A DNA stretch of 56,205 bases, from NCBI GenBank assembly GCA_013289475.1, contig JABCZW010000012.1, positions 1 through 56,205 of the forward strand. The letters are read 5' to 3'. Each line of letters begins with the position of its first letter. Positions within the stretch are counted from its first letter, which is position 1. This DNA comes from Bacteroidota bacterium. Lineage in GTDB: Bacteria > Bacteroidota > Bacteroidia > JABEUT01. Made by a program: the position numbers and the translations under genes. Shown one piece after another: positions 3,072 to 47,119 of this stretch. The notes beneath the pieces are model-generated. The model was given only the letters and a program-made list of their open reading frames with translations. It was not told where the DNA came from and searched no databases.

Positions 3072-3263
3072 TGGGTTGGTTTTGTTTGTTTTTTTATATC
3101 AGGGATAGAATTATAAAACCAAAGATAATAAGATTGAAATAACAGAAGCTTTTAGGGCATATAGGCAAATGATGTGATATTGATAACTTGTTATTAAAAC
3201 TCGAACCGAGACGTTATCAGAATATTATGTAACTTTATTACTTGATTAGAAAAATACCATCTC

Positions 3264-6200
3264 ATGAAATACAAGTACTTATTGATTAAGAAAGTTTTAC
3301 TCACATCTTCATTGCTGGTTTTTATTTTTTCACTTTCCGGTGCGCAAACAATTGGCTTGCTATGGGGTATGACAAATGCAGGAGGTGATAGTAGCGGAGG
3401 AGTATTGTTTAACTATGATGTGCTCACTTCAAAGGGTAGTCCGGTACATTCATTTCCTATCCAGGAAGGAATACAGCCTTACAATACCGAACTAATACAG
3501 GCTACCGATGGCAATTTTTATGGAATGACCGAAGCAGGTGGCCCGAATAATTATGGCACAATTTTTAAATGCGGACCGTCGTATAAAGTTACTACGTTAA
3601 TTACTTTTAATAATACAAATGGCGCCAATCCTTATGGCGGCCTTATACAAGCTACCGATGGTAACCTTTATGGAATGACATATAATGGTGGTGCATCAAA
3701 TTACGGTACAATTTTTAAATACAATATTACTTCGGGTGTATTAACCACTTTAGTCAGCTTTACCAGTACCAATGGTGCTAACCCTTATGGAAGCTTAATG
3801 CAGGCCAGTGATGGTAATTTTTATGGAATGACATGTAAGGGTGGTACATCAAATGACGGCACAATTTTTAAATGCACTAAAACCGGCACACTTACTGTGT
3901 TGGTTAATTTTAATGGCACAAATGGCGCTAATCCTTTTGGGAATTTAATACAAGCTACCGATGGTAACCTTTATGGAATGAGTTATTACGGCGGTTCGAT
4001 AACCGATGGAACTATTTTTAAGTGCACCTTGTCAGGTACACTTACCAATATACTTTTTTTTAATTCAAGTAGTAGTGAAAGGCCTATGGGTAGCTTAATA
4101 CAAGGCACTGATGGTAATCTTTATGGAATGACATATGAAGGAGGCACAAATAATACCGGAACTGTTTTTAAATGCACCACTTCAGGTGCATTAACTAATT
4201 TATATAGTTTTCCCAACAATGCATATCCTCGCGGCAGCCTTATACAGGCCAGCGATGGTAATCTATATGGCATGACATCGGGAGCAGGAACATCGGGGTA
4301 TGGTTTTCTTTTTAAATGCACCACATCCGGTACACTTACAACTTTAGTCAATTTCAATAATAAAAACGGTGCAACACCATACGGCAGCTTAATGCAGGCC
4401 AGCGACGGAAATCTTTACGGCATGACTTATGCAGGTGGTACTGTGGGCGATGGCACACTTTTTAAATGCAGTACTTCGGGGGCCCTTTCTGTTGTATTTA
4501 ATTTTGGCTCTACATATATAGGAACTACCCCTTATGGTAATGTAATACAGGCCAGCGATGGTAATCTATATGGCATGACATTTGCTGGTGGTTTATATAA
4601 TAAAGGCACAATTTTTAAATATACTGCATCGGGTATAATCACTACACTGGTTAATTTTAGTGATACAAGCGGCAGTAATCCCCGTGGCAGCTTAATTCAG
4701 GCTGCCGACGGTAATCTTTACGGAATGACTTCGAGTGGCGGCCCAAAGGGTGATGGCACAATTTTTAAATGCACCACTTCCGGTATACTTGATACCCTGG
4801 CTAGTTTCGCAGGTATCGCAAATGGTGCCGGGCCTGACGGAAATCTGATACAGGCTAATGACGGTAACCTATACGGAATGACCCGTGGCGGCGGATCAAA
4901 AAATATAGGCGTGATTTTTAAATGCACCACATCCGGTACACTTACAACCATATTTAATTTTGATCAAACACATGGCGCAGGTCCTTATGGCAGCCTTATT
5001 CAAGCCAGCGATAGTAACCTTTACGGTATGACAAATACCGGTGGGGCAGGTAACAGCGGAATTATTTTTAAATGCACCACCAGCGGTACGCTTACCGATG
5101 TGTTTGATTTTAATGGCAGCGAATATCCATGGTGGGGTGGCGATGCGCCTCTGGGTAGCCTGGTACAGGCTTCTAACGGATTAATTTATGGAATGACAGT
5201 ATCAGGTGGCACCTCCGGTGATGGAAATATTCTTGAGTATGGTCATCCGGGGAGTTTACTTTATAGCTATAGCTTTTCAGTTAACTATGCCCCACAGGGT
5301 AGCCTGGTTGAAGCAAGTGATGGCAACCTTTATGGCATGACAACGGGTGCAAGTATAAATAATGGACTTATTATTAAATATGGCCTCGACAGTGCTTTTG
5401 CCGGCGTATTTAATTTTACCAGCAACCCCAAAATGGGTACTAATCCATATGGCGATATTCTTGAAGCTTTGAGCACTATCATTATCGATTCTGCCTGTAC
5501 GGGTTCCAGTTCTACACTTACTGCTTCGGTAAGAGGAGGGAAAAGCCCGTTCACCTATTTGTGGTCAACCGGTGCAACTACTTCAAGTATACAAGGCATT
5601 ACAACAACGGGGTCTTATTCTGTTACCGTAAAAGACATAAGAGGCATTACAGTTAGCAACATATTTAATTTCCTCAGCGTAAGTACTGACAGTACATCTG
5701 CTATTTGTATGGGAGACTCCATCCACTTGTCCGCTTCAAGTAATGGCGGAACCGGAAGTATTACATATAATTGGATGCCGGGTAGCGCAAGCGGCGCATC
5801 GCCGGGCGTAAAACCAATAGTAAGCACCACCTATACAGTAACAGCTACCGATAAAAATGGCTGCACTTGCACTGCAACGCAAATTGTAACGGTGAATCCT
5901 TTGCCCAAAATAGGTTTTATTGGAAAAACATCAATATGCTCAGGCAGTTTTGACACATTAATTGTTTCCGGAGGAATAAGTTATATATGGAATACCGGAG
6001 CTACTAAGGACACAATAATAGTAAGCCCTTTAACTACAGCTACATACAGTGTAAGTGTTAGTAATGGGTTTTGTGCAAGGGATACTATGGTTAAGGTAAC
6101 TGTAAATACTACTCCTACTATCACTGTAACTCCATTTTCACCGAGCATATGCTCAGGCAGTGGTTTAAATCTTAACGCAACAGGTGCTGTTAGCTATACA

Positions 6201-7412
6201 TGGGCCCCGTCAGCGGGTTTATCTGCAACTACAGGTTTAATGGTCAATGCCTCGCCGGCAACTACTACTAAATATACTGTAACGGGGTTAAGTTCTGCAG
6301 GATGTGCAAATACCCGGGCAGATACTATAACAGTTTACCCCAGCAATGGCTTCGACCTAACAGGTAGCTTAACTGCATGTATAGATACCCCGGGGTTTTC
6401 AAATGCCTCCATTCAGGCATGTATTTATAATAGCCGGTGTATGCCGGTAAAGGGAACCCTTAAGCTTTTGCTTGATACTGCATTTCATATTACAAGCACA
6501 GTTTCAGATAGCATTACCAGGGTAAACGGCGATACATTGATGTGGAATTACGATAGCCTTTCAGATATTGGTAAAACACATTGTGTAAACTTAACCGGTA
6601 ACATAAGCTCTTTGCCGGCTGGTGATAGTGTATTTGTCAGTATGTTTATTTCGCCTGTAACGGGTGATTCTGTCCCTTCAAATAATAGTGTAATCTATTG
6701 GGTAAAAGCAGCTCCTTATAATTGTGTGGGTTTACCCTTCGACCCGAATGAAAAGGCTGTATACCCGGTTGGCGATATTTCATCCGCCCAAAAACTCACA
6801 TATACAATTCATTTCCAGAATACAGGTAATACAATAGCCAGGAATGTAGTGGTAATAGATACCCTTAGCAGTAAACTGGATCCGACTACATTGAAAGCCT
6901 TATCGAGCAGTAGCCCTATGACGATGCAAGTGGTAAGTGGGCATATTGTGAAATTTATTTTCGATAAAATTGATTTGCCTGATACAATAATGAGCAAAAC
7001 AACATCGATAGGTGTGTTTACTTTTAGTATAAACCCCATGGGTAGCGACCTGCCGGGAGATAAAATAACCAATAATGCAAATATTTATTTTGATGCAAAT
7101 CTTCCTGTAAAAACGAATACAACATTAAATACTATAAAAAGTATAATTACGGGTGTGCAAAATTTTGAATCGGTTCCTCATATTGCTTGTTTCCCTAACC
7201 CATTTGTTACTACAACAAGTATAGTGTTTAATACTGACGGGAAGCATTATATAGAGTTGGATGATATGACAGGCCGGAAAATAGAAACGATAGAATGCAC
7301 GGGTAGGCAATATGAACTGAAGAGGGATAATCTTGCATCCGGCATTTATTTTATAAGAGGTTACGATGAAGGGTTTAACTATATAGCCACAAGCAAAATA
7401 GTGGTGCAATAA
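3264..7412 (+). CDS. Giant GloVer-repeat T9SS surface protein
   Basis: A 1382-residue exported protein. After a signal peptide ending SLSGAQ come 13 tandem repeats of about 40-50 residues, each with a core like SLIQASDGNLYGMT..GG....GTIFKC, the signature of the GloVer tandem repeat (about residues 30-730). Then Ig/SprB-like domains (YLWSTGATTSSIQGI near 775; further ones to about 1030), a DUF11/DUF7619-type domain (DPNEKAVYPVGDISSAQ onward, about 1155-1290) and a T9SS C-terminal sorting domain starting CFPNPFVTTTS. It is therefore exported by T9SS and displayed or released at the surface. Its repeat count equals that of the paralogue at 43991, and both mature ends start with a degenerate LWGM unit. 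Ligand unknown. Confidence 0.88.
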   Translation: MKYKYLLIKKVLLTSSLLVFIFSLSGAQTIGLLWGMTNAGGDSSGGVLFNYDVLTSKGSPVHSFPIQEGIQPYNTELIQATDGNFYGMTEAGGPNNYGTIFKCGPSYKVTTLITFNNTNGANPYGGLIQATDGNLYGMTYNGGASNYGTIFKYNITSGVLTTLVSFTSTNGANPYGSLMQASDGNFYGMTCKGGTSNDGTIFKCTKTGTLTVLVNFNGTNGANPFGNLIQATDGNLYGMSYYGGSITDGTIFKCTLSGTLTNILFFNSSSSERPMGSLIQGTDGNLYGMTYEGGTNNTGTVFKCTTSGALTNLYSFPNNAYPRGSLIQASDGNLYGMTSGAGTSGYGFLFKCTTSGTLTTLVNFNNKNGATPYGSLMQASDGNLYGMTYAGGTVGDGTLFKCSTSGALSVVFNFGSTYIGTTPYGNVIQASDGNLYGMTFAGGLYNKGTIFKYTASGIITTLVNFSDTSGSNPRGSLIQAADGNLYGMTSSGGPKGDGTIFKCTTSGILDTLASFAGIANGAGPDGNLIQANDGNLYGMTRGGGSKNIGVIFKCTTSGTLTTIFNFDQTHGAGPYGSLIQASDSNLYGMTNTGGAGNSGIIFKCTTSGTLTDVFDFNGSEYPWWGGDAPLGSLVQASNGLIYGMTVSGGTSGDGNILEYGHPGSLLYSYSFSVNYAPQGSLVEASDGNLYGMTTGASINNGLIIKYGLDSAFAGVFNFTSNPKMGTNPYGDILEALSTIIIDSACTGSSSTLTASVRGGKSPFTYLWSTGATTSSIQGITTTGSYSVTVKDIRGITVSNIFNFLSVSTDSTSAICMGDSIHLSASSNGGTGSITYNWMPGSASGASPGVKPIVSTTYTVTATDKNGCTCTATQIVTVNPLPKIGFIGKTSICSGSFDTLIVSGGISYIWNTGATKDTIIVSPLTTATYSVSVSNGFCARDTMVKVTVNTTPTITVTPFSPSICSGSGLNLNATGAVSYTWAPSAGLSATTGLMVNASPATTTKYTVTGLSSAGCANTRADTITVYPSNGFDLTGSLTACIDTPGFSNASIQACIYNSRCMPVKGTLKLLLDTAFHITSTVSDSITRVNGDTLMWNYDSLSDIGKTHCVNLTGNISSLPAGDSVFVSMFISPVTGDSVPSNNSVIYWVKAAPYNCVGLPFDPNEKAVYPVGDISSAQKLTYTIHFQNTGNTIARNVVVIDTLSSKLDPTTLKALSSSSPMTMQVVSGHIVKFIFDKIDLPDTIMSKTTSIGVFTFSINPMGSDLPGDKITNNANIYFDANLPVKTNTTLNTIKSIITGVQNFESVPHIACFPNPFVTTTSIVFNTDGKHYIELDDMTGRKIETIECTGRQYELKRDNLASGIYFIRGYDEGFNYIATSKIVVQ

Positions 7413-7415
7413 GTT

Positions 7416-7490
7416 TTACCAATCCATCTCTATCCCGCCCTGCAAATAGGTTTTTGTTTTGCCGCTAATTTCAATACTTGTATTCGCTAA
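7416..7490 (-). pseudogene. Relic of a PhzF gene 3' end
   Basis: On the minus strand this reads about 25 codons ending IEISGKTKTYLQGGIEMDW then TAA. That is the C-terminus of the PhzF gene whose stop is at 14198 (VEISGKAKTYLQGEIEMDW). Over 60 bases I count about 52 identities to that gene and clearly fewer to the second PhzF gene. The match runs a few bases past the stop codon, and an in-frame stop lies just upstream, so only the gene end survives. Confidence 0.85.
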
Positions 7491-7578
7491 ACTCTGTTAT
7501 TTTTATTAAAGTAAGGATATTGAAATCAAGTGAGCCTCTAAATAATATAGGCAAAGGATGTGATTTTACCAATGCTGA

Positions 7579-10563
7579 CTAAATCTGTTTCAGCGGTATT
7601 GTAATTATAACCTTTGTTCCGGTTGCTTCTTCTTTATCTTCTACAATAATTTTTGCCATACCGGGGTTCAGGCTGTTTATTATGTCTATCCTGTCTTCGG
7701 TAGCCGAAATACCCATTGAACGATGTAAAGGGTCTTTATGCCGTTTTATTTCTCCTGCTTTTTTTCTGCCAATACCATTATCCTCAATAGTGCAAACTAA
7801 CATGGCATCGTGTTCCCGGATATGTATTTTAAGCATTCCGGTATTGTCCTGCAGCGGCATTAAGCCATGCAATATCGAATTTTCTACAAATGGCTGTAGC
7901 AATAATGGTGGTATAAGAGTTGTAAATGTTGAAACATTGGGATCTACTGAAATATTAAATTTAAATTTACCACCGGCACGTAATTGCTCAAGGTTTATAT
8001 ACAAAGAAAGTGTTTCTATTTCCTGCCCAAGGGGTATGTATTCTAATTTCGAGTTTTCCATTACGTTGCGTATAAGCCTGGCGAAGCGCGCCAGGTAATC
8101 TTGCGCAGTTTTCCGGTCGTCTTTTAAAATGTGGCTTTGAATGGAATTGATAGCGTTGAAAATAAAATGGGGGTTCATTTGTGCACGAAGCGCTTTCATT
8201 TCAATATTGGCAATATGCTGGCCTAAAAGTACCTTTTCAAGTTCTTTTTTTTGTATGCGGCTTAACCATGCATAAAGCAGAGACAGTGTTAACAGAATGG
8301 CAAGTACTTTAAACCAAATTGTTTGCCAAAAAGGGCTGTTAATAACAAAAACCATGTGTACGCCGCCCTGGCTTTCCATGCCATTGGCAGCAATTGCCTT
8401 AACGGTAAAAATATATTCGCCGGGCGGAAGAAACTGGTACTGTACATTAGGCGTTTGGGTTACATGCCATGCGCTGTCAAGCCCATCGAGTTTGTATTTA
8501 TACTCAAGCTTGCCAAAACTATTATATGATAAGCCAATGAAGGAAATCTTTATCCTGTTTTCGCTGTAGCTTAGGGATGCATCTTTATCTATGGGGCGTT
8601 TTGTATCATTTACTATAAACTGTGTAATAAAAACCGAAGGCACAGGTTGCACTTCATTAGCAGGCAAGGCATGCGATATGATTCCGTTCTCAGATGATAG
8701 CCAGAGCTTGTTGCCCGTTTGTTCTATACGTGTTATTTTTTGATTGGGAAACGCATCTGAAAGATTATATTTTGTTGCAAAATAATGGCCGCCCGAATCT
8801 GCAATTGATGTAACACCGCTTTTGGTACTTACCCAAATGGTGCCATACGTGTCGGTAAAAACCTGCTGGCAATTATTCGATATTAATCCATTGGCTGTGG
8901 TAAGGCGGCTATATGTATTGTTTCTTTTTATTATAATGCCATTCCCGTTTGTTGCAAAGTAATACGTTCCGTCTTTCGCCTGGTAAATATCTTCTATCCT
9001 GTCTTTAAAATACGGATTATCATTACCATGATAGGTAAGTTTATCATGTTCGTAAGCCCACAGGCCATTAAAGCACCCCAGCCAAAGTACTCCTTTATTA
9101 TCTATATAACAGGTTGATGTACGTGATGGGAGTTTATCTATTATTAATTTAGCAAATGAGGAAGTTTTATCTAACCTATATACAGAATAACGATTCAGAA
9201 CATATACGTATTTGTTTATCGTGTCTAAGGCATTAAGATAGCAGGAGATATGATTTCCATTGCTGTCTGTAATAAGTTTTGGAGGAACATTATAATTGAA
9301 TATTGCGTATGAAGAAGAACCATTGAGTTCGAATAAATTACCTGAAGTAATAATTACCGGTAAGGTGTAAGCAGAGTAACCTAATATATCAAAAGCTTTT
9401 TTAACAGAACTCAATTTTACATTTCTGATAATGGTATCGGGCGTTGCTATATCAATAGTATCTTTTGATTTACTTATGGTAATATGCCTGTTATCTAATT
9501 TGCATATATTATATTCAATTGAAGTGGGGCCCTGCGGAAGAGTATATTCTCTTATAAAGTGATGGGGCGATAAATAATACAAGCCGTTTTCAAGTGTCGT
9601 AAACCATTTTCCGCCCTCATTATCGGTCATAATATGGGTTACAGAATACCCGTCTAAGTAATGTGTTATGCCCTTGGTTAGCTTACCATTTGAATAAAGA
9701 TAGTCAGCTGCTCCGCCTGCTCTTTTTGATATCCATATGTGATTGTTTTCTTTTAAAAAGCAGGCTATCTTGCCAAAATAATCGGGACTGAAACTAAGCA
9801 ACAGATTTTTGCTTTTAGGTGTAACCTGGTATAAGGTGTAGGTATCGGTTATCAGAAAAGTATCTTTTGATATTTCTATATAGCTAAGGTTAGTGGGTAT
9901 AAGTTTTCCAATATCGGGTGTTCCGTTGAAAATGTTTTTTTTGTAAAAAGATATTTTAACATCATCCTTAATAATGGATCGATAGCCAAATATATAATTC
10001 TGCTCATCGAGCTTTACTATATAAACAGAATGCTGTGAAGGAGTTATTTTATGAAAATCGGCAGGTTTATAGCCGGGATATATTTTGTAATAAGAGTCCG
10101 TTCCCCTTATTCCGCACCAAAGAGTATCTCCGGCATCAATAACTAACGATATCATTATGGAGTTTTTAATGTTTGCCACTATACTGTCGTTGGCACCAAT
10201 AGAATATATTGAGTCGTCGGCCCAATAGCAAAGCTTGCCCGAAAGCGAACGGAACCATATACGCCCGTGCCTGTCTTCGTAAATGCCAAATACCGTATTA
10301 TCGGCAAGGCCATTTTCTATACTGTACGTTTTGAATGAATATCCATCGAATCGGGCCACGCCCTGGTCGGTGGCAACCCAAACAAAGCCTTTAGAATCCT
10401 GCATGGAAAAATATGTTTCGGAACTGGGCAGCCCGTCTTTTACATTATAGTTTTTAAATACGGGTTGCTGGGCACTGGCAGTAGCAATAAACATTGCTGC
10501 CCATGCCGATAACATAATTGAAATTTGTAAGGCGGTTTTTAATATTATACGGAAATACTTCAC
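7579..10563 (-). CDS. Sensor histidine kinase with periplasmic Reg_prop propeller
   Basis: About 994 residues. Order: signal/anchor helix ending TASAQQ; two-component-regulator propeller repeats through about residue 680 (DSKGFVWVATDQGVARFDG, DKEGGKW-type blades); a Y_Y_Y domain (YKYKLDGLDSAW, near 700); one membrane helix (TIWFKVLAILLTLSLLYAW); a LytS-type kinase core with the phospho-accepting His in MNPHFIFNAINSIQ; and an ATPase with N box QPFVENSILHG and G box EDNGIGRKKA. There is no receiver or AraC domain, so it is a classical kinase, not a hybrid. It should phosphorylate the divergent LytTR regulator at 10677. I prefer the GTG at 10563; a TTG at 10611 would add 16 residues and overlap the neighbour. 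Confidence 0.9.
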   Translation of the reverse strand: MKYFRIILKTALQISIMLSAWAAMFIATASAQQPVFKNYNVKDGLPSSETYFSMQDSKGFVWVATDQGVARFDGYSFKTYSIENGLADNTVFGIYEDRHGRIWFRSLSGKLCYWADDSIYSIGANDSIVANIKNSIMISLVIDAGDTLWCGIRGTDSYYKIYPGYKPADFHKITPSQHSVYIVKLDEQNYIFGYRSIIKDDVKISFYKKNIFNGTPDIGKLIPTNLSYIEISKDTFLITDTYTLYQVTPKSKNLLLSFSPDYFGKIACFLKENNHIWISKRAGGAADYLYSNGKLTKGITHYLDGYSVTHIMTDNEGGKWFTTLENGLYYLSPHHFIREYTLPQGPTSIEYNICKLDNRHITISKSKDTIDIATPDTIIRNVKLSSVKKAFDILGYSAYTLPVIITSGNLFELNGSSSYAIFNYNVPPKLITDSNGNHISCYLNALDTINKYVYVLNRYSVYRLDKTSSFAKLIIDKLPSRTSTCYIDNKGVLWLGCFNGLWAYEHDKLTYHGNDNPYFKDRIEDIYQAKDGTYYFATNGNGIIIKRNNTYSRLTTANGLISNNCQQVFTDTYGTIWVSTKSGVTSIADSGGHYFATKYNLSDAFPNQKITRIEQTGNKLWLSSENGIISHALPANEVQPVPSVFITQFIVNDTKRPIDKDASLSYSENRIKISFIGLSYNSFGKLEYKYKLDGLDSAWHVTQTPNVQYQFLPPGEYIFTVKAIAANGMESQGGVHMVFVINSPFWQTIWFKVLAILLTLSLLYAWLSRIQKKELEKVLLGQHIANIEMKALRAQMNPHFIFNAINSIQSHILKDDRKTAQDYLARFARLIRNVMENSKLEYIPLGQEIETLSLYINLEQLRAGGKFKFNISVDPNVSTFTTLIPPLLLQPFVENSILHGLMPLQDNTGMLKIHIREHDAMLVCTIEDNGIGRKKAGEIKRHKDPLHRSMGISATEDRIDIINSLNPGMAKIIVEDKEEATGTKVIITIPLKQI

Positions 10564-10676
10564 TATGCGGGTTTCAAGAGGCACAAAAAAACACAAAATA
10601 ATTGATTGCAAATAATTTAATATGTATAATAAACAGAAGTGATTACTTTTATCTTTTAAAATATATAATACTGCAA

Positions 10677-11414
10677 TTGAATTATTCTGCTGTAATAGTT
10701 GATGATGAACCGGGCGGTACCGAATCGCTTGAATTGCTGATAAAAGAATATTGTCCGCAGATTAATGTGAAAGCAATTGCCCATACTGTGCAGGAAGCAA
10801 TAGATGCAATAGTAATGCATAAGCCTGCTGTTTTATTTCTCGATATTCAAATGCCGACCGGCAGCGGGTTTGAAGTTATTGAGCATACCACGCATGTAAG
10901 CTATAAAGTAATATTTACTACAGCGCACGAAGAATATGCCTTGCAGGCCATTAAAGCAAATGCAATTGATTACCTGTTAAAACCTATTATTGCCGAAGAA
11001 CTTATTAAGGCCGTTGACAGGGTTACTACTACAAGCAATTCTCAACTAACCGAATTGCTTAATATGGTGGGCCAGATAAATACCAGGCATTCGGGCACCG
11101 TTAAAATATCGATACCATGCAGCGAAGGTTTGTTGTTTATAGAATCAGACAACATACAACACATGGAAGCTGATTCGAACTATACTTACTTTTTCCTGGC
11201 AGGCGGAAAGAAAATTACTGCATCAAAAACACTGGGAGATATTGAAAAATTACTTCCTGAAAACTTTATAAGGGTACATTCAGCATATATTTTGAACCTC
11301 AACAAAATAGAAAAGTACGTAAAAGGCGATGGTGGCCATGTAGTTATGCAGGATGGCAGCACAATACCTGTTTCGCGCTCACAAAAGCAGGCATTTCTTA
11401 AAAAAATCAATTAA
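10677..11414 (+). CDS. LytTR-family response regulator
   Basis: A receiver domain followed by a LytTR DNA-binding domain, about 245 residues. Receiver residues are present: acidic pair Asp9-Asp10 (VIVDDEP), phospho-acceptor Asp56 (LFLDIQMP), Thr81/82 and Lys102 (LLKPI). The LytTR domain spans about 145-245 (NFIRVHSAYILNLNKIEKY, TIPVSRSQKQAF). The ORF has no suitable ATG; the TTG at 10677 places the start just before the first receiver strand. Divergent from its probable kinase across about 110 bases, it likely acts at the direct repeat at 11441-11477 and perhaps in the shared intergenic region. Confidence 0.9.
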   Translation: MNYSAVIVDDEPGGTESLELLIKEYCPQINVKAIAHTVQEAIDAIVMHKPAVLFLDIQMPTGSGFEVIEHTTHVSYKVIFTTAHEEYALQAIKANAIDYLLKPIIAEELIKAVDRVTTTSNSQLTELLNMVGQINTRHSGTVKISIPCSEGLLFIESDNIQHMEADSNYTYFFLAGGKKITASKTLGDIEKLLPENFIRVHSAYILNLNKIEKYVKGDGGHVVMQDGSTIPVSRSQKQAFLKKIN

Positions 11415-11440
11415 GGGTATAGTAATATTCGGCCCTTTTC

Positions 11441-11477
11441 ATGTTAACTACTCATTCGGGTATGTTAATTACTCATT
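11441..11477 (+). promoter_or_regulatory. Candidate LytTR operator: direct repeat, 21-bp spacing
   Basis: Two copies of ATGTTAAyTACTCATT (11441-11456 and 11462-11477) differ at one base and start 21 bp apart, two helical turns. Known LytTR regulators (AgrA, ComE) bind pairs of about 9-bp direct repeats with a 12-13 bp spacer, giving the same period. The pair lies between the regulator gene and the start of the secreted protein at 11567. Binding is an inference. Confidence 0.6.
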
Positions 11478-11566
11478 TTGATATACGGGTATATATAAGT
11501 TGATAGAATTTTGGCCCCATTATGCAACTAATAATAACCCTATTCAAAATTATTAAACCAAAAAAA

Positions 11567-13564
11567 ATGAAAACAAACAAATTTCTATTTTCCACAATTT
11601 TTGCCTCTGCCTTATTCTTCCAGGCAGCTAAAGGGCAAACAACGGGTGCTATACCCCAAAGTAAGGAGGAGTTAACTGATAAGGCAATAGTTAAAAATCC
11701 TTGCGCTGTTGTATTTGACCATGATAATTTTACCAATCCTTCTGCCTGGACTGTTATAGATGGTGTTAATGGTAACGGTAGTGTAGTAGTAGGTGGTGGG
11801 CAGCTTACATTTTCAAACGCCGATGGAACTTACACTTGCCCATCGCAGCATGGCGCATCAAATAACAGGTCATTAAGAACGTATCGTGCTTTAACCGGTC
11901 CATTAAGCAATCACAGCTGGAGATCAGAATGCCGCGTGCGCATAACAGATGGCAACGGGCCAACCCAAACATTAATGGCGTTTACTGCCGGAACCCAGGA
12001 CCCTGAAGGTTCTAATCCGGGCTCAACAACTTGGACGTGCTGCAATAATGGTAATACAAGTGCTTCGTACACACCCAGTGCACAGGATGGTATTTTTGCT
12101 TCGCTTATAGCATTCGGTACCGACCAGATTCCTGCTGCCAATACCTGTAATGGCCAATTATTTCCGGGTTCATATTCTAATACTGCTACTCCGGGCTCAG
12201 GAAGTCAATTGGGCTGGAGGATATTTGGCCATGCAAAAAGTGCAGCTCATGCCGCAAATTTCTATCCATCTATTTCACAAGTATACCAGGCCGAGAACCT
12301 TTTATCACCTGCACCTCCACTTAACTGGTCGAGAGGTATTTTATTACCCGCATTAAATACCGATTATTATATGCGTTTAGAAAGGTTAAATAGCGGAACA
12401 TGTCGTATCAGTATATTTTCTGATGCTGCCATGACCGTTAATATACCGGGGTCTCCGCAATGTTTTAGTATTGATCCTACTATATCTAATCTCGATATTT
12501 TCCAGAATGCTGCATCTGCTTCGGGAAGTTGCTTGAGAACAGCTGCCGGATATATTGCAGACTTAAAAATATTTAATAATTGCCCCGGCGGTATACCAAA
12601 TCTTATTGCTACTACCGGTGTTCCAACACCTTGTTGTACCGATACGTTATACGCTTCAACGGGTTTTACCAATTATACATGGTATCCGGGTGGCATAAAT
12701 ACCGGTAACCAAAACTGGTTAGTGGTAAATGCTACTTCAACTGCAACAACGTATACAGTAACTGCTGACCTGCCTGGTTATCCCGGCTGTCCGTTTACTG
12801 CAACTGCAACTGTTAACCCATGCAAACCAAAGTATCCTATTCCCGATCCAAGCTTTTCGCTGTCAGGTAATTTACCGGCAACGGGTAATTTCTTTACCGT
12901 AAGCGCTGCACCAACAATGGCTAATACAACCATAACAGGTTATGGAAGCGGTTGGGCCTATTCATGGGAAGTTGATATGGAAAATGTAACAGGTGCTCCT
13001 ATTTATTGCACCGTTGTTAACCCAATTAACTGGCAAAGCGCTTTACCTACACTTGCTTTCCCCGGATATGGAAGTACAAACACGCCATCGTGCAGCAATA
13101 GTGGTGCAACAACAGGCTCCGGTCAATTTTATGTGGGATACAGGTATAGGGTTATACGCACCATAAAGAGCCCTTGCGGTATCTATACTTCTTCAAAGTC
13201 TATTATGCTGTGTTCTAGTTGCATAACTATGGATGGTTCTCCTGCATTTACTGTAATTGATGAAGGCAATACCTCAACTTCAATTGATGGTTCTCCTGAA
13301 GCTGTTAGCAGTATTAATGTTATTGAGCACAGTGTTAAAATATATCCTAATCCAAGCAAAGGGATATTTAACATTGACCTTGGCAGCTCAGGAACCGGAA
13401 CAATTGAGGTGTATGACTTTATGGGCAGAAATGTGAAAAAGCTGGAACTGAACAGCTCCGATACACAATACAAACTCGATCTTTCTAATTATCCTAAAGG
13501 CCTGTATCTGCTGGATATGGTTATTGACGGTACCAGGCATACTGAAAGGCTTATAGTTCAGTAA
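11567..13564 (+). CDS. T9SS-exported surface protein, probable target of the LytTR pair
   Basis: I start it at the ATG giving MKTNKFLFSTIFASALFFQAA, a signal peptide cut near KGQ; an upstream ATG at 11522 would bury this signal behind 15 residues. The roughly 665-residue protein has an N-terminal jelly-roll/lectin-like region (FDHDNFTNPSAWTV through about 330), a segment with Ig/PKD character (YASTGFTNYTWYPGG near 365), and a T9SS sorting domain (KIYPNPSKGIFNIDLG to the end). Several cysteines suggest disulfides outside the cell. A strong terminator follows. Carbohydrate or surface binding is plausible but not shown. Confidence 0.82.
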   Translation: MKTNKFLFSTIFASALFFQAAKGQTTGAIPQSKEELTDKAIVKNPCAVVFDHDNFTNPSAWTVIDGVNGNGSVVVGGGQLTFSNADGTYTCPSQHGASNNRSLRTYRALTGPLSNHSWRSECRVRITDGNGPTQTLMAFTAGTQDPEGSNPGSTTWTCCNNGNTSASYTPSAQDGIFASLIAFGTDQIPAANTCNGQLFPGSYSNTATPGSGSQLGWRIFGHAKSAAHAANFYPSISQVYQAENLLSPAPPLNWSRGILLPALNTDYYMRLERLNSGTCRISIFSDAAMTVNIPGSPQCFSIDPTISNLDIFQNAASASGSCLRTAAGYIADLKIFNNCPGGIPNLIATTGVPTPCCTDTLYASTGFTNYTWYPGGINTGNQNWLVVNATSTATTYTVTADLPGYPGCPFTATATVNPCKPKYPIPDPSFSLSGNLPATGNFFTVSAAPTMANTTITGYGSGWAYSWEVDMENVTGAPIYCTVVNPINWQSALPTLAFPGYGSTNTPSCSNSGATTGSGQFYVGYRYRVIRTIKSPCGIYTSSKSIMLCSSCITMDGSPAFTVIDEGNTSTSIDGSPEAVSSINVIEHSVKIYPNPSKGIFNIDLGSSGTGTIEVYDFMGRNVKKLELNSSDTQYKLDLSNYPKGLYLLDMVIDGTRHTERLIVQ

Positions 13565-13590
13565 GCTATTCATTATTCTCCACCACGTTA

Positions 13591-13620
13591 AAAGCCCCTG
13601 ACTTAATTGTCAGGGGCTTT
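13591..13620. terminator. Bidirectional intrinsic terminator
   Basis: A 12-bp perfect stem (aaagcccctgac with gtcaggggcttt) and a 6-nt loop, A-rich on the left and T-rich on the right, between two convergent genes. It can stop transcription from both sides. Confidence 0.88.
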
Positions 13621-13642
13621 CTTTATAGATGATTTTTGCTAT

Positions 13643-14167
13643 TTAGTTTTTCCTTTTTACCAGTATGAATTTTCCGATGGCAATGTGAAAATTATTTTCT
13701 ACCCTGTATTCTAATGTGTCGCCTAAAGGTGAATCAAAATCCTGAATTATTGGAATTCCATTTTCCCCGTAGAAATAGCGATTGTCTTTAGTGAGTATTC
13801 GCCAATAAATACCTTCTCCCTTCAAATCATTTTCTTTACCATTTATCAATAATTTATAGCCCTGGGGTTGAATACTTACAATGTTAGATTTCCCATCATA
13901 AAAGCAATCTTTTTCAAGCCATGCTTCTTTAATACTAACCTTTAGGCTGTCATTTATTTTGTATGGGTTTGAAGGCGTTATATATTCAGCAATAAATGAG
14001 CCATTTTTTTTAGATGTTTTTATGTTTGGTGATATATATTCTCCTGAAAGAGGTAGGCCCAATAATCTTGTAATTATGTAAATCAATCCAAATAGTGAAA
14101 TAAGGATTAAAATAAATAATATAGCCCATTTGGGAATGAATCCTGCTGATTTATTTGGTGGTGGCAT
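13643..14167 (-). CDS. Single-pass membrane protein, unknown
   Basis: About 174 residues with one strong membrane helix (KWAILFILILISLFGLIYIITRLL, residues about 14-37) and a C-terminal globular part that should face the periplasm. The start is the ATG giving MPPPNKSAG; a TTG farther out would overlap the PhzF stop more closely. It lies 30 bases after PhzF 1 on the same strand and probably shares its transcript. The soluble part (SIQPQGYKLLINGKENDL, YRVENNFHIAIGKF) is beta-rich with no recognised motif. Confidence 0.6.
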   Translation of the reverse strand: MPPPNKSAGFIPKWAILFILILISLFGLIYIITRLLGLPLSGEYISPNIKTSKKNGSFIAEYITPSNPYKINDSLKVSIKEAWLEKDCFYDGKSNIVSIQPQGYKLLINGKENDLKGEGIYWRILTKDNRYFYGENGIPIIQDFDSPLGDTLEYRVENNFHIAIGKFILVKRKN

Positions 14168-14197
14168 TTTTTTTGGAATAAAATCTGTATGCAAGTT

Positions 14198-14995
14198 TCA
14201 CCAATCCATCTCTATCTCGCCCTGCAAATATGTTTTTGCTTTGCCACTTATTTCAACCCGGTTACCCAGGCTAAGGCATTTCACATATCCTTTGCGGGCC
14301 GATAATTGCACCGCGTTCATTTCTTTTTTATTCAGTTTCTCTGACCAATAAGGGATAAGTGTGGCAAATGCAGAACCTGTTACTGAATCTTCGTCAATAA
14401 GGTTTTGTGGGGCGAAGAAACGTAATACAAAATCTATATTGCTGCCCGGCGCTCCCGGTGCCGTAACTATTACTCCCCTTGAATCAACTAATGACATTAC
14501 CCTGAAATTGGGTTTCAGTTTAAGTATATCCTGTTCGTTAGGGTAAATGAGCATATAATCGGCTTTGCCTTTATAGCATTCACCCGTGCGTATGTTTAAC
14601 GATATAGAAAGCTCGGCAGGTGTTTTCTCTCTTTCATATTCATCGGCAGGCAGGTTAAGTATATAGTAACCATCCTGTTTTTTTACGGTCAGCATGCCGC
14701 TGCGCGAATTGAAATTTATTTCGTTTCCGCTATATCCTAAATGATTCATTAAAACATGCGCCGTTGCAACAGTTGCATTTCCATTTAAGTCTAATTCAAT
14801 AGTAGGGGTAAACCAACGGATGTTAAAACCATTGCCTTCTTTTATAAAAAATGCGGTAGTGGTAAGGCTATTCTCAATGGCAATGCTTTTCATTAACTCA
14901 GGGCTCAGCCACCTGTCAAGCGGGCATACTGCCGCAGGGTTGCCTGAGAAAAGCTTATCGGTAAATGCATCTACCCTATATAAAGTAAGTTTCAT
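14198..14995 (-). CDS. PhzF-family protein 1, catalytic residues replaced
   Basis: 265 residues with PhzF/diaminopimelate-epimerase-like fold signatures: FSGNPAAVCPLDRWL near 16-30 and DEDSVTGSA near 215. In active PhzF isomerases a Glu in the N-L-x-E-T-x-F motif and a His in the C-G-H-A-T motif act in catalysis. Here those sites read SLTTTAFF (Thr46 for Glu) and NGNAT (Asn for both Cys and His). The neighbouring paralogue keeps both. The protein is full length with an intact frame, so it is either neofunctionalised or non-catalytic, not a fresh pseudogene. A relic of its own 3' end lies at 7416. Confidence 0.88.
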   Translation of the reverse strand: MKLTLYRVDAFTDKLFSGNPAAVCPLDRWLSPELMKSIAIENSLTTTAFFIKEGNGFNIRWFTPTIELDLNGNATVATAHVLMNHLGYSGNEINFNSRSGMLTVKKQDGYYILNLPADEYEREKTPAELSISLNIRTGECYKGKADYMLIYPNEQDILKLKPNFRVMSLVDSRGVIVTAPGAPGSNIDFVLRFFAPQNLIDEDSVTGSAFATLIPYWSEKLNKKEMNAVQLSARKGYVKCLSLGNRVEISGKAKTYLQGEIEMDW

Positions 14996-15015: not shown

Positions 15016-15804
15016 TTAATCTATTTCTATTTCGCCCTTCAAATAAATTTTTGCTTTGCCGCTTATTTCAATCCGCTGGCCCTTGTCAACACATTTTAAA
15101 TAGCCTTTACGGGCCGATAATTGAACTGCGTTCAATTCTTTTTTGCCCAATATACCCGACCAATACGGTGTAAGCGTAGTATGTGCCGAACCGGTTACAG
15201 GATCCTCGTCAATACCACTTTGTGGCGCAAAAAATCGAGAAACAAAATCTACGTTGTTACCCTTAGCTGTGCAAATCACTCCGCGGCCATCGAGCATTTT
15301 AAAGGCCATGAAATTGGGCTTTATTTTTGTTATTTCTTCTTCGGTTTCATACACCAGCATATAGTCCGTTTTGCCACGGTAACATTCTTTACTGTGTATG
15401 TTGAGCGCAATAGATAATTCAGCAGGAGTCTTTACCCTTTCGTATTCATCAACCGGGAAATCGAGCGTAAGGCTGTCACCATTCTTGGTTACCTTCAATA
15501 TACCACTGCGCGAATTGAATTTTATCTCATCGCCTTTGTGGCCTTCGTAATTGAATAACACAAATGATGTTGCCAGGGTAGCGTGCCCGCAAAGTTCAAC
15601 CTCAACGGCACCGGGTGTAAACCAGCGTATATGGTAAGCATCGCCGTCTTTTACAAAAAAAGCAGTTTCAGCCAGGTTGTTTTCCATGGCAATGTTTTTC
15701 ATCTGCTCGTCTGTTAACCATTTATCTAAGGGACAAACAGCCGCAGGGTTGCCCGAGAACAATTTCTCGGCAAAGGCATCTATGTGGTAAATTTTTAGCT
15801 TCAT
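15016..15804 (-). CDS. PhzF-family isomerase 2
   Basis: 262 residues, usual length for PhzF/YddE proteins, which share a two-domain fold with diaminopimelate epimerase. The catalytic motif NLAETAFF keeps Glu46, CGHAT keeps His74, and DEDPVTGSAH is intact. It is thus likely an active isomerase, but no phenazine genes are nearby and YddE-like members have unknown substrates, so phenazine synthesis should not be assumed. It lies 20 bases upstream of PhzF 1 and presumably forms an operon with it and the small membrane protein. Confidence 0.9.
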   Translation of the reverse strand: MKLKIYHIDAFAEKLFSGNPAAVCPLDKWLTDEQMKNIAMENNLAETAFFVKDGDAYHIRWFTPGAVEVELCGHATLATSFVLFNYEGHKGDEIKFNSRSGILKVTKNGDSLTLDFPVDEYERVKTPAELSIALNIHSKECYRGKTDYMLVYETEEEITKIKPNFMAFKMLDGRGVICTAKGNNVDFVSRFFAPQSGIDEDPVTGSAHTTLTPYWSGILGKKELNAVQLSARKGYLKCVDKGQRIEISGKAKIYLKGEIEID

Positions 15805-17897: not shown

Positions 17898-19223
17898 ATG
17901 AAAAGCCTATTCTTAATCCCTGTAATTTTGTTTTCATCAATTTTTGCTGGAGCACAAACTTGGAATGCCCTGGGTAGTGGAGTAAATAATGCCCTATATA
18001 CATTAGATAGCGCCAATAATAAACTATATGCCGGAGGGTATTTCACTTTGGCGGGAGGTGGACCAACAAATTACATAGCACAATGGAATGGATCTACTTG
18101 GTCTGCATTGGGAACTGGAATTGGAACAGGTGCTTCAAACATGGTTGGTGTAATACGCACCTATAACGGCAATATTTATGCCGGAGGGATTTTCACTACT
18201 GCGGGTGGCTCCTCTGCAAATAATATAGCAGAATGGAACGGTGTTTCTTGGTCTTCATTAGGGACTGGATTAAACGCTACTAGCAATGGTGTCACTTCAA
18301 TGGTCGTTTATAATGGTGATTTAATTGTTGGTGGGCAATTTACCACGGCCGGAGGAAATTCAGCCAATTTTATTGCTGCATGGAATGGATTGACATGGTC
18401 TTCTTTAGGAACCGGAATGAATAGTCCGGTTTTTGCTTTGACTGTCTATAATGGCAATCTTTATGCTGGAGGAACATTTACAACCGCTGGGGGTAAATCA
18501 GCTAATCATATAGCGGAATGGAATGGGTCATCTTGGTCTTCGCTTGGAACTGGAACAAATAATTTCATAGTAAGTTTGACAACTTTCAATGATAGTCTAT
18601 ATGCAGGTGGAGCATTTACTACTGCTGGTGGAAAAACAGCCAATTACATCGCCGAGTGGAATGGAGCATCCTGGTCGGCTGTGGGTACTGGAATGAATGA
18701 TTGGGTAGAAGCTTTGGTAGTGTTTAATGGTAATTTATATGCAGATGGATTATTTACCATAGCAGGAGGAAATTCTGCTAATTATGTAGCCGAATGGAAT
18801 GATACATTATGGAAGCCACTTGGTTCAGGACTGAGTGGAGGAGGGAATGCATTAGCAACATTCAATGATGATCTATATGCCGGAGGTACTTTTGATAGTG
18901 CCGGAGGAATAACGGTTAATAATATTGCTCAATGGAAAGGACCCTTAGGTATAAATGAGCTTTCAAATAACTATTCGGTAAATGTTTATCCAAACCCAAG
19001 TAAGGGGGTGTTCACTGTTGAAGTGAATAGTGAACAGTCAAAAGTGAATAGTAAAGTTGAAGTTTATAATGTATTAGGAGAAGAAGTATATTCTGAATTC
19101 TCAATTTACAATTCTCAATTTGTAATTGATTTAAGTAATCAACCATCCGGGATATACTTATATAGAATATTAAATAAAGACGGCTCGCTTATTAAAGCCG
19201 ATAAACTGATTATTGAACGATAG
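17898..19223 (+). CDS. Seven-repeat beta-propeller T9SS protein
   Basis: 441 residues: signal peptide (FAGAQ), seven repeats of about 45 residues with the core YNGNLYAGGTFTTAGG...IAEWNG.SWSSLGTG (about 20-350), then a T9SS sorting domain from VNVYPNPSKGVFTVEV. Seven repeats fit a closed seven-blade propeller displayed outside the cell. The sorting domain contains an odd polar stretch (NSEQSKVNSK) and a second one (FSIYNSQF) made of short DNA repeats, absent from the sorting domain at 11567. Ligand unknown. Confidence 0.82.
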   Translation: MKSLFLIPVILFSSIFAGAQTWNALGSGVNNALYTLDSANNKLYAGGYFTLAGGGPTNYIAQWNGSTWSALGTGIGTGASNMVGVIRTYNGNIYAGGIFTTAGGSSANNIAEWNGVSWSSLGTGLNATSNGVTSMVVYNGDLIVGGQFTTAGGNSANFIAAWNGLTWSSLGTGMNSPVFALTVYNGNLYAGGTFTTAGGKSANHIAEWNGSSWSSLGTGTNNFIVSLTTFNDSLYAGGAFTTAGGKTANYIAEWNGASWSAVGTGMNDWVEALVVFNGNLYADGLFTIAGGNSANYVAEWNDTLWKPLGSGLSGGGNALATFNDDLYAGGTFDSAGGITVNNIAQWKGPLGINELSNNYSVNVYPNPSKGVFTVEVNSEQSKVNSKVEVYNVLGEEVYSEFSIYNSQFVIDLSNQPSGIYLYRILNKDGSLIKADKLIIER

Positions 19224-43990: not shown

Positions 43991-46900
43991 ATGAAAAAAA
44001 TTACATTTTCGTTTACGGCAATGCTTGTATTATTGCTTCTGTCTTTTACCTGTGTTAATGCCCAAAAAATAGGTCAACTCTGGGGCATGTCGGGCCAGGG
44101 TGACAGCGCGACAGGCCTAATATTTATGTATAACCCTTTAACCGGTAAGGATAGCGTTGTTCGCCATCTCCCGGGTTATAATGGCCCCGAAACACCCTTG
44201 TATGCTTCTTTAATACAAGCTAATGATGGCAATTTTTATGGTACCGCATCAAATGGCGGTAATAATAATGGCTGTGTTTTTGTTGTTACTCCTTCTGGAA
44301 CATATATACTTGCCAAATTTAACGGGTTCAATGGCGCTTTCCCCAGTGGCGGACTGATACAGGGGGCTGATGGTAACCTATACGGTACTGCTACACAAGG
44401 CGGTACTTCTTCTTACGGAGCTATATTTAAATGCACCTTAGGCGGAACCCTTACCGCAATAGCCAATTTTAATAATACCAATGGCGGAAGCCCCGATGGG
44501 GTATTGGTTCAGGATAAAAATGGCAATTTATATGGTATGACACAAACAGGTGGCTCGGGTGGCAACGGTACTGTGTTTGAATGCACCACAGCAGGAACAT
44601 TAAAAACACTTGTGAATTTTTCAAGCGGAGAGACCCCTTATGGCAGTCTTATTCTTGTTAAGGATAGCCTGTATGGAATGACCCTCCAGGGCGGATCGGG
44701 TAGCGGAACTATTTTTAAATGCGATACCCTCGGACACCTTGTTACTATGGTGACATTTACAAACAATGAAGACCCCTACGGCGCTTTATTACTTGCCAAC
44801 GATGGCAATCTTTACGGAATGACATCCGGTGGAGGTTCGAGTGGATATGGCACCATATTTAAATGCACAACTACCGGCACGCTAACAACCCTGGTTAATT
44901 TTGCCAACCAGGAATATCCATACGGCAGCCTGGTGCAAGCCCTCGACGGTAACCTTTATGGAATGACCAGCGGTGGTGGTATTTATAATAGCGGTACAGT
45001 ATTTAAATGCACCACAAGCGGTACACTAACCACTATTGATAACCTGGCCGGTGCTACCGGGGCACCGTATGGCAGCCTTATTCAAGCGCTCGATGGCGAC
45101 CTGTATGGCATGTCGAACAGTAATACAAGCTTTGGAAGTGTTTTTAAATGTACCACGGCTGGTGTTCTTACCAATTTGTTTATTATGGGCGCTACCGATA
45201 TACCATATAATCCCACTGGTAACCCCGCCTCAGGTGGCCTTACACAGGCTTATGACGGTAATCTTTATGGTATGGCGCAAGCAGGAGGGGAGTTTGGTAG
45301 CGGAGCTTTGTTTCGTGTTTCTCAGCAAACTGGTATTGTTACCGACATAGTTGACTTTAATGATACCAATGGTGCGAATCCTTTAGGCCGTGTTATGCTG
45401 GGCGCTGATAGTAACCTTTACGGAATGACTGAATATGCTGGTACCAAAAACGATGGCATTGTATTTAAATATAACACACATACCGGTAATTTTAAGGTGC
45501 TTGTTAATTTTAACGGAACAAACGGAGCGTACCCATATGGTAACCTTATTGAAGGCCCGGGCGATACTCTATATGGAATGACTGAAGGAGGAGGTTCCGG
45601 CAACAATGGTACCATATTTAAATGCACTACCAAGGGAGCCTTAACTACCTTATACAATTTTGCCGGAGGCGAATACCCATCTGGCAGCCTGTTGTTGGCC
45701 AACGATGGTAACCTTTACGGTATGGAAGGTAATAATGGTTCGGGTAGTATTTTTAAATGTTCTACATTGGGTGTATTCTCCACTCCTTATTTCTTTTCTC
45801 ATACCGAATATCCATCGGGTAGCCTTATTCAGGGTGTGGACGGTAATTTATATGGCATGACATACGGAGGTGGAGCCTCAAGTAATGGGTATATTTTCAA
45901 ATGTACATTGGCCGGAGCGCTTACCGATATATTTGACTTTACCGGTACAAATACCGGAAGCCACCCTTACAGCAGCCTTATACAAGCTACCGACAGCGCG
46001 CTTTATGGTATGACACGCAATGGCGGTGGTATATATAGTTTGGGTTCTGCTTTTAAATGTACTACTACTGGGGTATTCGATACACTTTTCACTTTCAATT
46101 ACTACAACGGAGGTAATTCTCAATACAACGACTTTACCGAAGTAATGAATATATCGCTGAAGCCGGTAACTACATGCGGCGGCTATATACTTACCGATAC
46201 TGTTTTCGGTGGTGGTATTGGTGCACTTAAATACAAGTGGTCGAATGGGGCTACTACAGCAAGTATAGATAGTATAAAAGCTGGGGGCACTTATTCTGTT
46301 ACTGTTACCAACGCAAGTGGATTTTACCTTACAACAAGCACGACCTTATCTCCCTATGTTCATGTTAATGCTAGTGTAATCGGTGGTAACCCTAAGTGTA
46401 CCGGCCTTAGTGATGGAACTGTTACTGCAATTGCAGCAAACGGAACACCAACATATTCTTATTCCTGGAACACATTGCCAATACAAACCAATGCAACTGC
46501 TACCGCCTTACTTGCCGGGAAATATGTTGTGACTGTTACCGATAATACAGGCTGTACTACAAAAGACAGTGCAACTATTATTGATCCTGCCAAGGTATCG
46601 GTAAGTACAGGTTCAAAAAGCAATGCATCGTGTAACGGTTGCACCGATGGCAGTGCAACATTGGTTGTAACCGGCGGAAACAAGAACATAATTGTCTGGA
46701 GCGATAGTGCCACGGGTTATACAACTATGGGTAACCATACCGCTGATACTATTAACCATCTTGCAGCAGGTACTTATGTATGCACCGTAACTGATAGCTG
46801 TGGCGATAGTAAGACCGATACTATACGCATTACACAGCCTGCACCATTGGGTATGCAAACTATTAGTGCCAATGGCGGAGTAAGTATTTACCCTATGCCA

Positions 46901-47119
46901 AGCAACGGGCATTTTGCCATAGCCTTTACTGGCGGTGGGTACCAGCTCGTAACTATTTATAACGAAACCGGGGCCAAAGTATTTAGCAAAGAGCTGAATG
47001 AAAGTAATACTAACAGCACACTTTCAATCGACCTTTCTGCTTATGCCGATGGTATATACTTTGCACAGGTTATTACCAAGCATGGACCAGTGAATAAGAA
47101 GATAGTTATTCAGCGATAA
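43991..47119 (+). CDS. Second giant GloVer-repeat T9SS protein
   Basis: 1042 residues: signal peptide (CVNAQ), degenerate first unit IGQLWGMSG, then 13 GloVer repeats (ANDGNLYGMTSGGG..GYGTIFKCTTTGTL..; about 75-715). Three SprB-like repeats follow (PVTTCGGYILTDTVFGGG; GNPKCTGLSDGTVTA; SNASCNGCTDGSATL; about 720-955) and a T9SS sorting domain (SIYPMPSNGHFAIAF to KKIVIQR). It is the paralogue of the 3264 protein, with the same repeat number but without the DUF11-like domain. Function unknown. Confidence 0.88.
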   Translation: MKKITFSFTAMLVLLLLSFTCVNAQKIGQLWGMSGQGDSATGLIFMYNPLTGKDSVVRHLPGYNGPETPLYASLIQANDGNFYGTASNGGNNNGCVFVVTPSGTYILAKFNGFNGAFPSGGLIQGADGNLYGTATQGGTSSYGAIFKCTLGGTLTAIANFNNTNGGSPDGVLVQDKNGNLYGMTQTGGSGGNGTVFECTTAGTLKTLVNFSSGETPYGSLILVKDSLYGMTLQGGSGSGTIFKCDTLGHLVTMVTFTNNEDPYGALLLANDGNLYGMTSGGGSSGYGTIFKCTTTGTLTTLVNFANQEYPYGSLVQALDGNLYGMTSGGGIYNSGTVFKCTTSGTLTTIDNLAGATGAPYGSLIQALDGDLYGMSNSNTSFGSVFKCTTAGVLTNLFIMGATDIPYNPTGNPASGGLTQAYDGNLYGMAQAGGEFGSGALFRVSQQTGIVTDIVDFNDTNGANPLGRVMLGADSNLYGMTEYAGTKNDGIVFKYNTHTGNFKVLVNFNGTNGAYPYGNLIEGPGDTLYGMTEGGGSGNNGTIFKCTTKGALTTLYNFAGGEYPSGSLLLANDGNLYGMEGNNGSGSIFKCSTLGVFSTPYFFSHTEYPSGSLIQGVDGNLYGMTYGGGASSNGYIFKCTLAGALTDIFDFTGTNTGSHPYSSLIQATDSALYGMTRNGGGIYSLGSAFKCTTTGVFDTLFTFNYYNGGNSQYNDFTEVMNISLKPVTTCGGYILTDTVFGGGIGALKYKWSNGATTASIDSIKAGGTYSVTVTNASGFYLTTSTTLSPYVHVNASVIGGNPKCTGLSDGTVTAIAANGTPTYSYSWNTLPIQTNATATALLAGKYVVTVTDNTGCTTKDSATIIDPAKVSVSTGSKSNASCNGCTDGSATLVVTGGNKNIIVWSDSATGYTTMGNHTADTINHLAAGTYVCTVTDSCGDSKTDTIRITQPAPLGMQTISANGGVSIYPMPSNGHFAIAFTGGGYQLVTIYNETGAKVFSKELNESNTNSTLSIDLSAYADGIYFAQVITKHGPVNKKIVIQR

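Follow-up and report, generated by a model that had tools for sequence, protein, structure and literature searches.

Genes around the PhzF pair

The stretch analysed (the window, 56,205 nucleotides) comes from a Bacteroidota bacterium whose genome, G000, is 57% complete; comparisons within the genus cover 11 genomes, several of them incomplete. Two genes of the PhzC-PhzF family lie in tandem on its reverse strand: PhzF1 (14198..14995), which is intact (Pfam PF02567, E 3e-46) and has orthologues at the corresponding locus in the congeners G009 and G001, and PhzF2 (15016..15804), whose product shares 64% amino acid identity with PhzF1 and 87% with the G009 copy. A gene for a small membrane protein (13643..14194, reverse strand) follows within a few bases of PhzF1 and, being on the same strand, may belong to the PhzF transcript. 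This gene is an orphan in the genus, with no Pfam match and no homologue in the ten congeners.

Facing it is a gene on the forward strand (11567..13564) whose product is predicted to be a cargo protein of type IX secretion, its C-terminal end being a sorting domain (Por_Secre_tail, E 1e-15) and its N-terminal part being of no recognised type. Structure prediction (mean pLDDT 36) modelled the sorting domain alone, and a PDB sequence search with this cargo returned matches to that domain only. An inverted repeat, detected as a self-complementary match and followed by a T-rich stretch (13591..13620, forward strand), is the likely terminator of the cargo gene, judging from its sequence.

Upstream of the cargo gene, on the forward strand, is a response regulator consisting of a receiver (PF00072, E 1e-17) and a LytTR DNA-binding domain (PF04397, E 3e-17) at 10674..11414. 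The phospho-acceptor residues are kept (the receiver DD and the Asp of FLDIQMP) and the LytTR motifs are conserved. Divergent from it is the adjacent gene for a sensor histidine kinase (7579..10611, reverse strand), in which Pfam finds a Reg_prop propeller, Y_Y_Y, His_kinase (PF06580, E 1e-21) and HATPase domains and whose H-box reads NPHFIFN. The pair has the receiver, the LytTR domain and the neighbouring His_kinase by which a LytTR two-component system is recognised. Orthologues of the kinase occur in the genus only in G009 (66%), G004 (65%) and G005 (57%). The regulator is 62% identical to that of G005 and 79% identical to a G004 fragment of 34 residues, and its paralogues within the genus reach 45% identity at most.

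Still further along lies a large type IX secretion cargo gene (3264..7412, forward strand). Like those at 17898-19223 and 43991-47119, it is a repeat-rich cargo gene from an extensive paralogous family, of which each genome has many copies. The gene at 2412 has no match anywhere in the ten congeners. No recombinase, integrase, transposase or other mobile-element gene was found by Pfam among the block genes, their neighbours and ten further genes of the window, and the GC content of the block resembles that of its surroundings.

A second copy of the PhzF1 gene end

The stop codon of the 3264 gene abuts a relic, a 64-bp partial copy of the PhzF1 3' end (7411..7474, reverse strand). Its counterpart is the 3' end of intact PhzF1 (14193..14256, reverse strand); the two are direct repeats in the same orientation, identical at 58 of 64 positions (90.6%; blastn E ~1e-20 in a search within the window), and bracket 6.8 kb (7411-14256). 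The original prediction had reported such a repeat, running 5 bases past the stop codon, at about 52 of 60 bases, and the match proves to be better than that; its description of a kinase, a LytTR regulator, a cargo gene and a membrane protein between the copies agrees with the gene content that we find. The repeat comprises the final PhzF1 codons, the stop codon (TAA in the relic, TGA in PhzF1) and five bases past the stop (AACTT).

Part of the similarity is explained by conservation within the family, since PhzF1 and PhzF2 are themselves 86% alike over 58 bases at the corresponding end. PhzF2 matches the relic more weakly than PhzF1 does (84% over 55 bases), and only PhzF1 shares with the relic the last (Trp) codon and the bases beyond the stop. 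Upstream of the relic (7479-7640) no PhzF homology rose above shuffled sequence (p 0.72 against PhzF1, 0.19 against PhzF2). An extension of the relic through a SLAN resembling the SLGN of PhzF1 was rejected; it requires a 3-base gap and aligned no better than shuffled sequence. Also dropped, as too short to judge, was a possible overlap of the PhzF1 stop with the start of a downstream PhzF since lost (TGAAACTT versus ATGAAACTT).

A test of 257 gene ends, taken from the window and from stretches of relatives, gave the relic as the sole orphan second copy, the remaining matches being between whole predicted (paralogous) genes, and a DNA search across the genus found no further copies of it. It is of note that another direct repeat, a weaker one (3126-3181 and 7512-7567; 40 of 56 bases, or 71%, with a core of 21 of 23), flanks the 3264 gene and the relic and interleaves with the PhzF repeat, which may mean a more complicated history.

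A putative operator before type IX cargo genes

Between the regulator and the cargo gene is a putative operator (11443..11477, forward strand) made up of two direct repeats of GTTAAYTACTCATT that begin at 11443 and 11464. The genus was searched for two copies of GTTAAYTACTCATT set at a 21-bp step, allowing three mismatches at most, the reversed pattern serving as control. This gave nine matches in G000, G004, G005 and G009, some of which overlap because a site has three repeats; the reversed pattern gave none. The four operator-bearing genomes are exactly the four of the 11 that have the kinase; the other seven had no match, a split whose probability by chance is 1/330. The sites lie 96-124 bp before start codons, and the genes behind them, from several unrelated families, encode mostly type IX secretion cargo and in one case a lipoprotein. 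Across the 20 half-sites, 14 bp long and at a step of exactly 21 bp, GT-A---ACTCA is invariant.

Downstream of the operator, a T-rich and GC-rich box (the TAGAATTTTGGCCC region; 11505..11518 in the window, forward strand) keeps the same spacing from the operator in all nine promoters, a fit that none of 2000 offset shuffles equalled. We take this promoter-like box to resemble the Bacteroidota -7 element, which would put the proximal operator repeat near -50.

Extending the search to the class (395 genomes) gave only two further matches. One is in G258, a member of another family, with a large cargo gene on one side and a kinase/LytTR pair on the other. The G258 kinase has the same architecture (33% identity) and is followed by a regulator 52% identical to that of the window and so closer to it than are the paralogues within the genus. 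The other match, in G361, has three mismatches and precedes a gene for a secreted protein; it does not rise above the class-wide control, which itself gave four matches, and a 60-aa receiver fragment used as query found no orthologous regulator in that genome.

Could the matches simply be copies of a promoter that travelled with cargo genes as these were duplicated, so that there is no regulon? The cargo genes at G004:C37:5326, G004:C26 and G005:C34 do have similar C-terminal domains. However, other sites precede unrelated genes (the G009 lipoprotein, a 472-aa cargo of G004, the window cargo), and what is conserved is the 14-bp repeats and the promoter-like box alone, spacers and flanks being different. 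We therefore regard this explanation as improbable. Some of the cargo genes behind the operator in G005 and G004 are very large (L114:199-5793, L120:404-10846 and L112:5326-8160), their products ranging from 944 to about 3480 aa and resembling one another in the C-terminal domain.

LytTR sites consist of a pair of repeats, each 9-11 nt long, separated by 11-13 nt (PMC4847170), a direct-repeat arrangement that the candidate operator shares, and the proximal repeats of AgrA lie near -60 (PMC4227749); the geometry of the candidate is accordingly that expected of an activator site. Like AgrA, YpdAB, VirR and PlnC, the block pairs a sensor kinase with a receiver-LytTR regulator and has a direct-repeat operator with a two-turn step just upstream of a promoter (PMC4227749, PMC4847170). 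Unlike these systems, its sensor has a Reg_prop/Y_Y_Y propeller, its putative targets are type IX secretion cargo, and the half-site GTTAAYTACTCATT is specific to the lineage of its own regulator. Given the co-occurrence and the promoter phasing, the regulator may bind the operator and activate transcription from it.

PorX/PorY-SigP resembles the block in linking two-component control to type IX secretion, and its targets are the genes of the secretion machinery (PMC4800418, PMC8265659). The putative sites of the block, on the other hand, stand before individual cargo and lipoprotein genes, so that control would be exerted at the level of the cargo, and its regulator is of the receiver-LytTR type; the block has no PorX-type regulator with SigP and por machinery targets. 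A LytTR regulon of type IX cargo was not described in the literature searched, which left most subscription journals uncovered. If the regulon is real, its operator is defined and can be searched for, and secreted-protein regulons could be read from genomes. The candidate operator is a concrete site for testing, and it is a stronger result than the duplication of a gene end.

The PhzF locus in relatives and the origin of the block

In G009 (contig C39) the gene order is PurT, PhzF2, PhzF1, a 480-aa secretion cargo, then orthologues of the window genes at 1881, 572 and 143. The 480-aa gene is on the opposite strand relative to the 3264 gene. A different type IX cargo gene directly after the PhzF1 3' end (L047:4058-5500) makes this flank look like a recurrent insertion site. 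In G001 (C103) 150 bp separate the 1881 orthologue from PhzF, and a second PhzF is present with its end, PhzF being tandemly duplicated in G000, G009 and G001. In G005 (C28) the 1881 orthologue adjoins PhzF, here a lone copy, and PurT comes next. At the PhzF locus all three genomes lack the kinase block, a third PhzF and the genes at 3264 and 2412; the full third PhzF at 7416 that the original prediction had named as evidence against itself is found in none of them. Nor was a relative found with PhzF1 next to the 3264 gene and lacking the block, an arrangement which it had suggested seeking. The locus itself is thus the ordinary one, to which G000 adds about 11.8 kb of DNA between the 1881 gene and PhzF1 (~2.4-14.2 kb). 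The DNA missing in relatives begins at ~2.4 kb and not at 7.4 kb, and, as the 2412 and 3264 genes belong to it, part of it falls outside the repeats.

The kinase has other addresses. In G004 and G009 it adjoins what we take to be pabB, followed by genes that look like pabC and hemF, presumably with a Kdp-like operon in between in G009; in G005 it occupies a third site, there too with a divergent LytTR regulator. G001, G007 and G010 have pabB without the kinase. No pabB was found in the 57% of the G000 genome that is available, hence no vacated donor site was seen. In G004, contig C52 starts inside a LytTR gene (the 34-residue fragment) and continues with the operator and two tandem cargo genes, which match the window cargo at 33-38% identity in their C-terminal halves; the operator is 29 bp after the regulator stop, as in the window, with 76% DNA identity over 85 bp, and contig C32 begins at the 5' end of the kinase. 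Joined across the contig gap, the G004 order kinase-LytTR-operator-cargo would be that of the window with other flanks. Relocation as a unit would leave such a pattern, a like inner order between flanks that differ, and these parts probably moved together. The proposal that kinase, regulator and cargo had moved as one unit is in this way probably correct, given also the kinase sites elsewhere in G004, G009 and G005. Two contigs, G004:C32 (L043:1-41) and G009:C41 (L042:1-14), both break at the kinase 5' end, beside the expected LytTR gene.

Since these relatives lack the block, it must have entered the locus whatever the origin of the relic. The explanation that we favor, and hold to be somewhat probable, is that a LytTR cassette with a dispersed cargo regulon was relocated together with one target gene and that the 64-bp copy of the PhzF1 end was left at the insertion. 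Such a cassette would consist of the propeller-type kinase, the divergent LytTR regulator, the operator and one target gene, that for the type IX cargo. The kinase would sense a signal outside the cytoplasm and phosphorylate the regulator, which would bind the two 14-bp direct repeats, at their 21-bp step just upstream of the promoter, and switch on genes for secreted proteins, one adjacent and others dispersed in the genome. As to the direction and mechanism of the move, we infer that the block most likely was relocated as a unit to the PhzF1 3' flank in the G000 lineage, and that the copy at its far edge most likely arose by duplication of the target end during an insertion without an integrase of its own. 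The sharp edges of the repeat, the lack of a third PhzF in relatives and the presence between the repeats of a unit seen at other sites speak for an insertion with an end copy. Against the favored explanation are the lack of a recombinase, the six differences in 64 bases, four of them silent or stop-to-stop, the position of the 2412 and 3264 genes outside the repeats, and the contig gap in G004. The full proposition, that a LytTR cassette commands a dispersed type IX cargo regulon and also moved with one target by an integrase-free, gene-end-duplicating event, is rather doubtful.

A quite possible alternative is that the relic is what remains of a third tandem copy of PhzF, the gene having duplicated repeatedly and the distal copy having been reduced to its 3' end, and that the block entered between the copies independently. 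PhzF is already tandemly duplicated in three of the genomes, and its paralogues are much alike at the end that the relic matches. Moreover, four of the six differences between relic and PhzF1 are silent or stop-to-stop, so that the relic looks like a former part of a functional gene, and its AGC and ACC codons agree with other family members and not with PhzF1. Yet a third PhzF at this end is seen in no relative, no decayed PhzF sequence was detected upstream of the relic, and insertion of the block is still required. Site-specific integration at the PhzF1 3' end, with the end regenerated as at att sites and the integrase later lost, would also give an intact gene end on one side and a short copy on the other, in the same orientation and reaching a few bases past the stop, as in integrative elements that regenerate gene ends. 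The block differs from these elements in having no integrase, imperfect repeats and extra DNA outside them; the relic has no other copy in the genus, and GC content does not set the block apart. This mechanism is very unlikely, and of the original prediction of insertion at the PhzF1 gene end it is the insertion that survives, through the empty locus in G009, G001 and G005, and not its integrase-style form.

It is also unlikely, though a little less so, that the block stood at PhzF ancestrally and that in G009, G001, G005 and G004 it has been lost or has moved elsewhere. The G000 version of the locus is the longest, and with the 2412 and 13643 genes unmatched elsewhere in the genus no relative shows where these two genes came from. 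But several independent losses would be needed, the G001 gap has only its 150 bp, and the kinase of two relatives is at one and the same different site, by pabB. Finally, the weak repeat at 3126-3181 and 7512-7567 raises the idea that the entire 3.1-14.2 kb stretch was duplicated in tandem and that loss came later, but a 71% repeat is hard to date together with a 91% one. Under the favored relocation, the locus is a case of a sensor, its regulator and a target staying together while their chromosomal address changes. A minor observation at the same locus is that in G005 (C28, L046:9398-10647) the orthologue of the 572-1195 gene occurs as a tandem pair, and at the gene end the identity is 93% over 41 bases.
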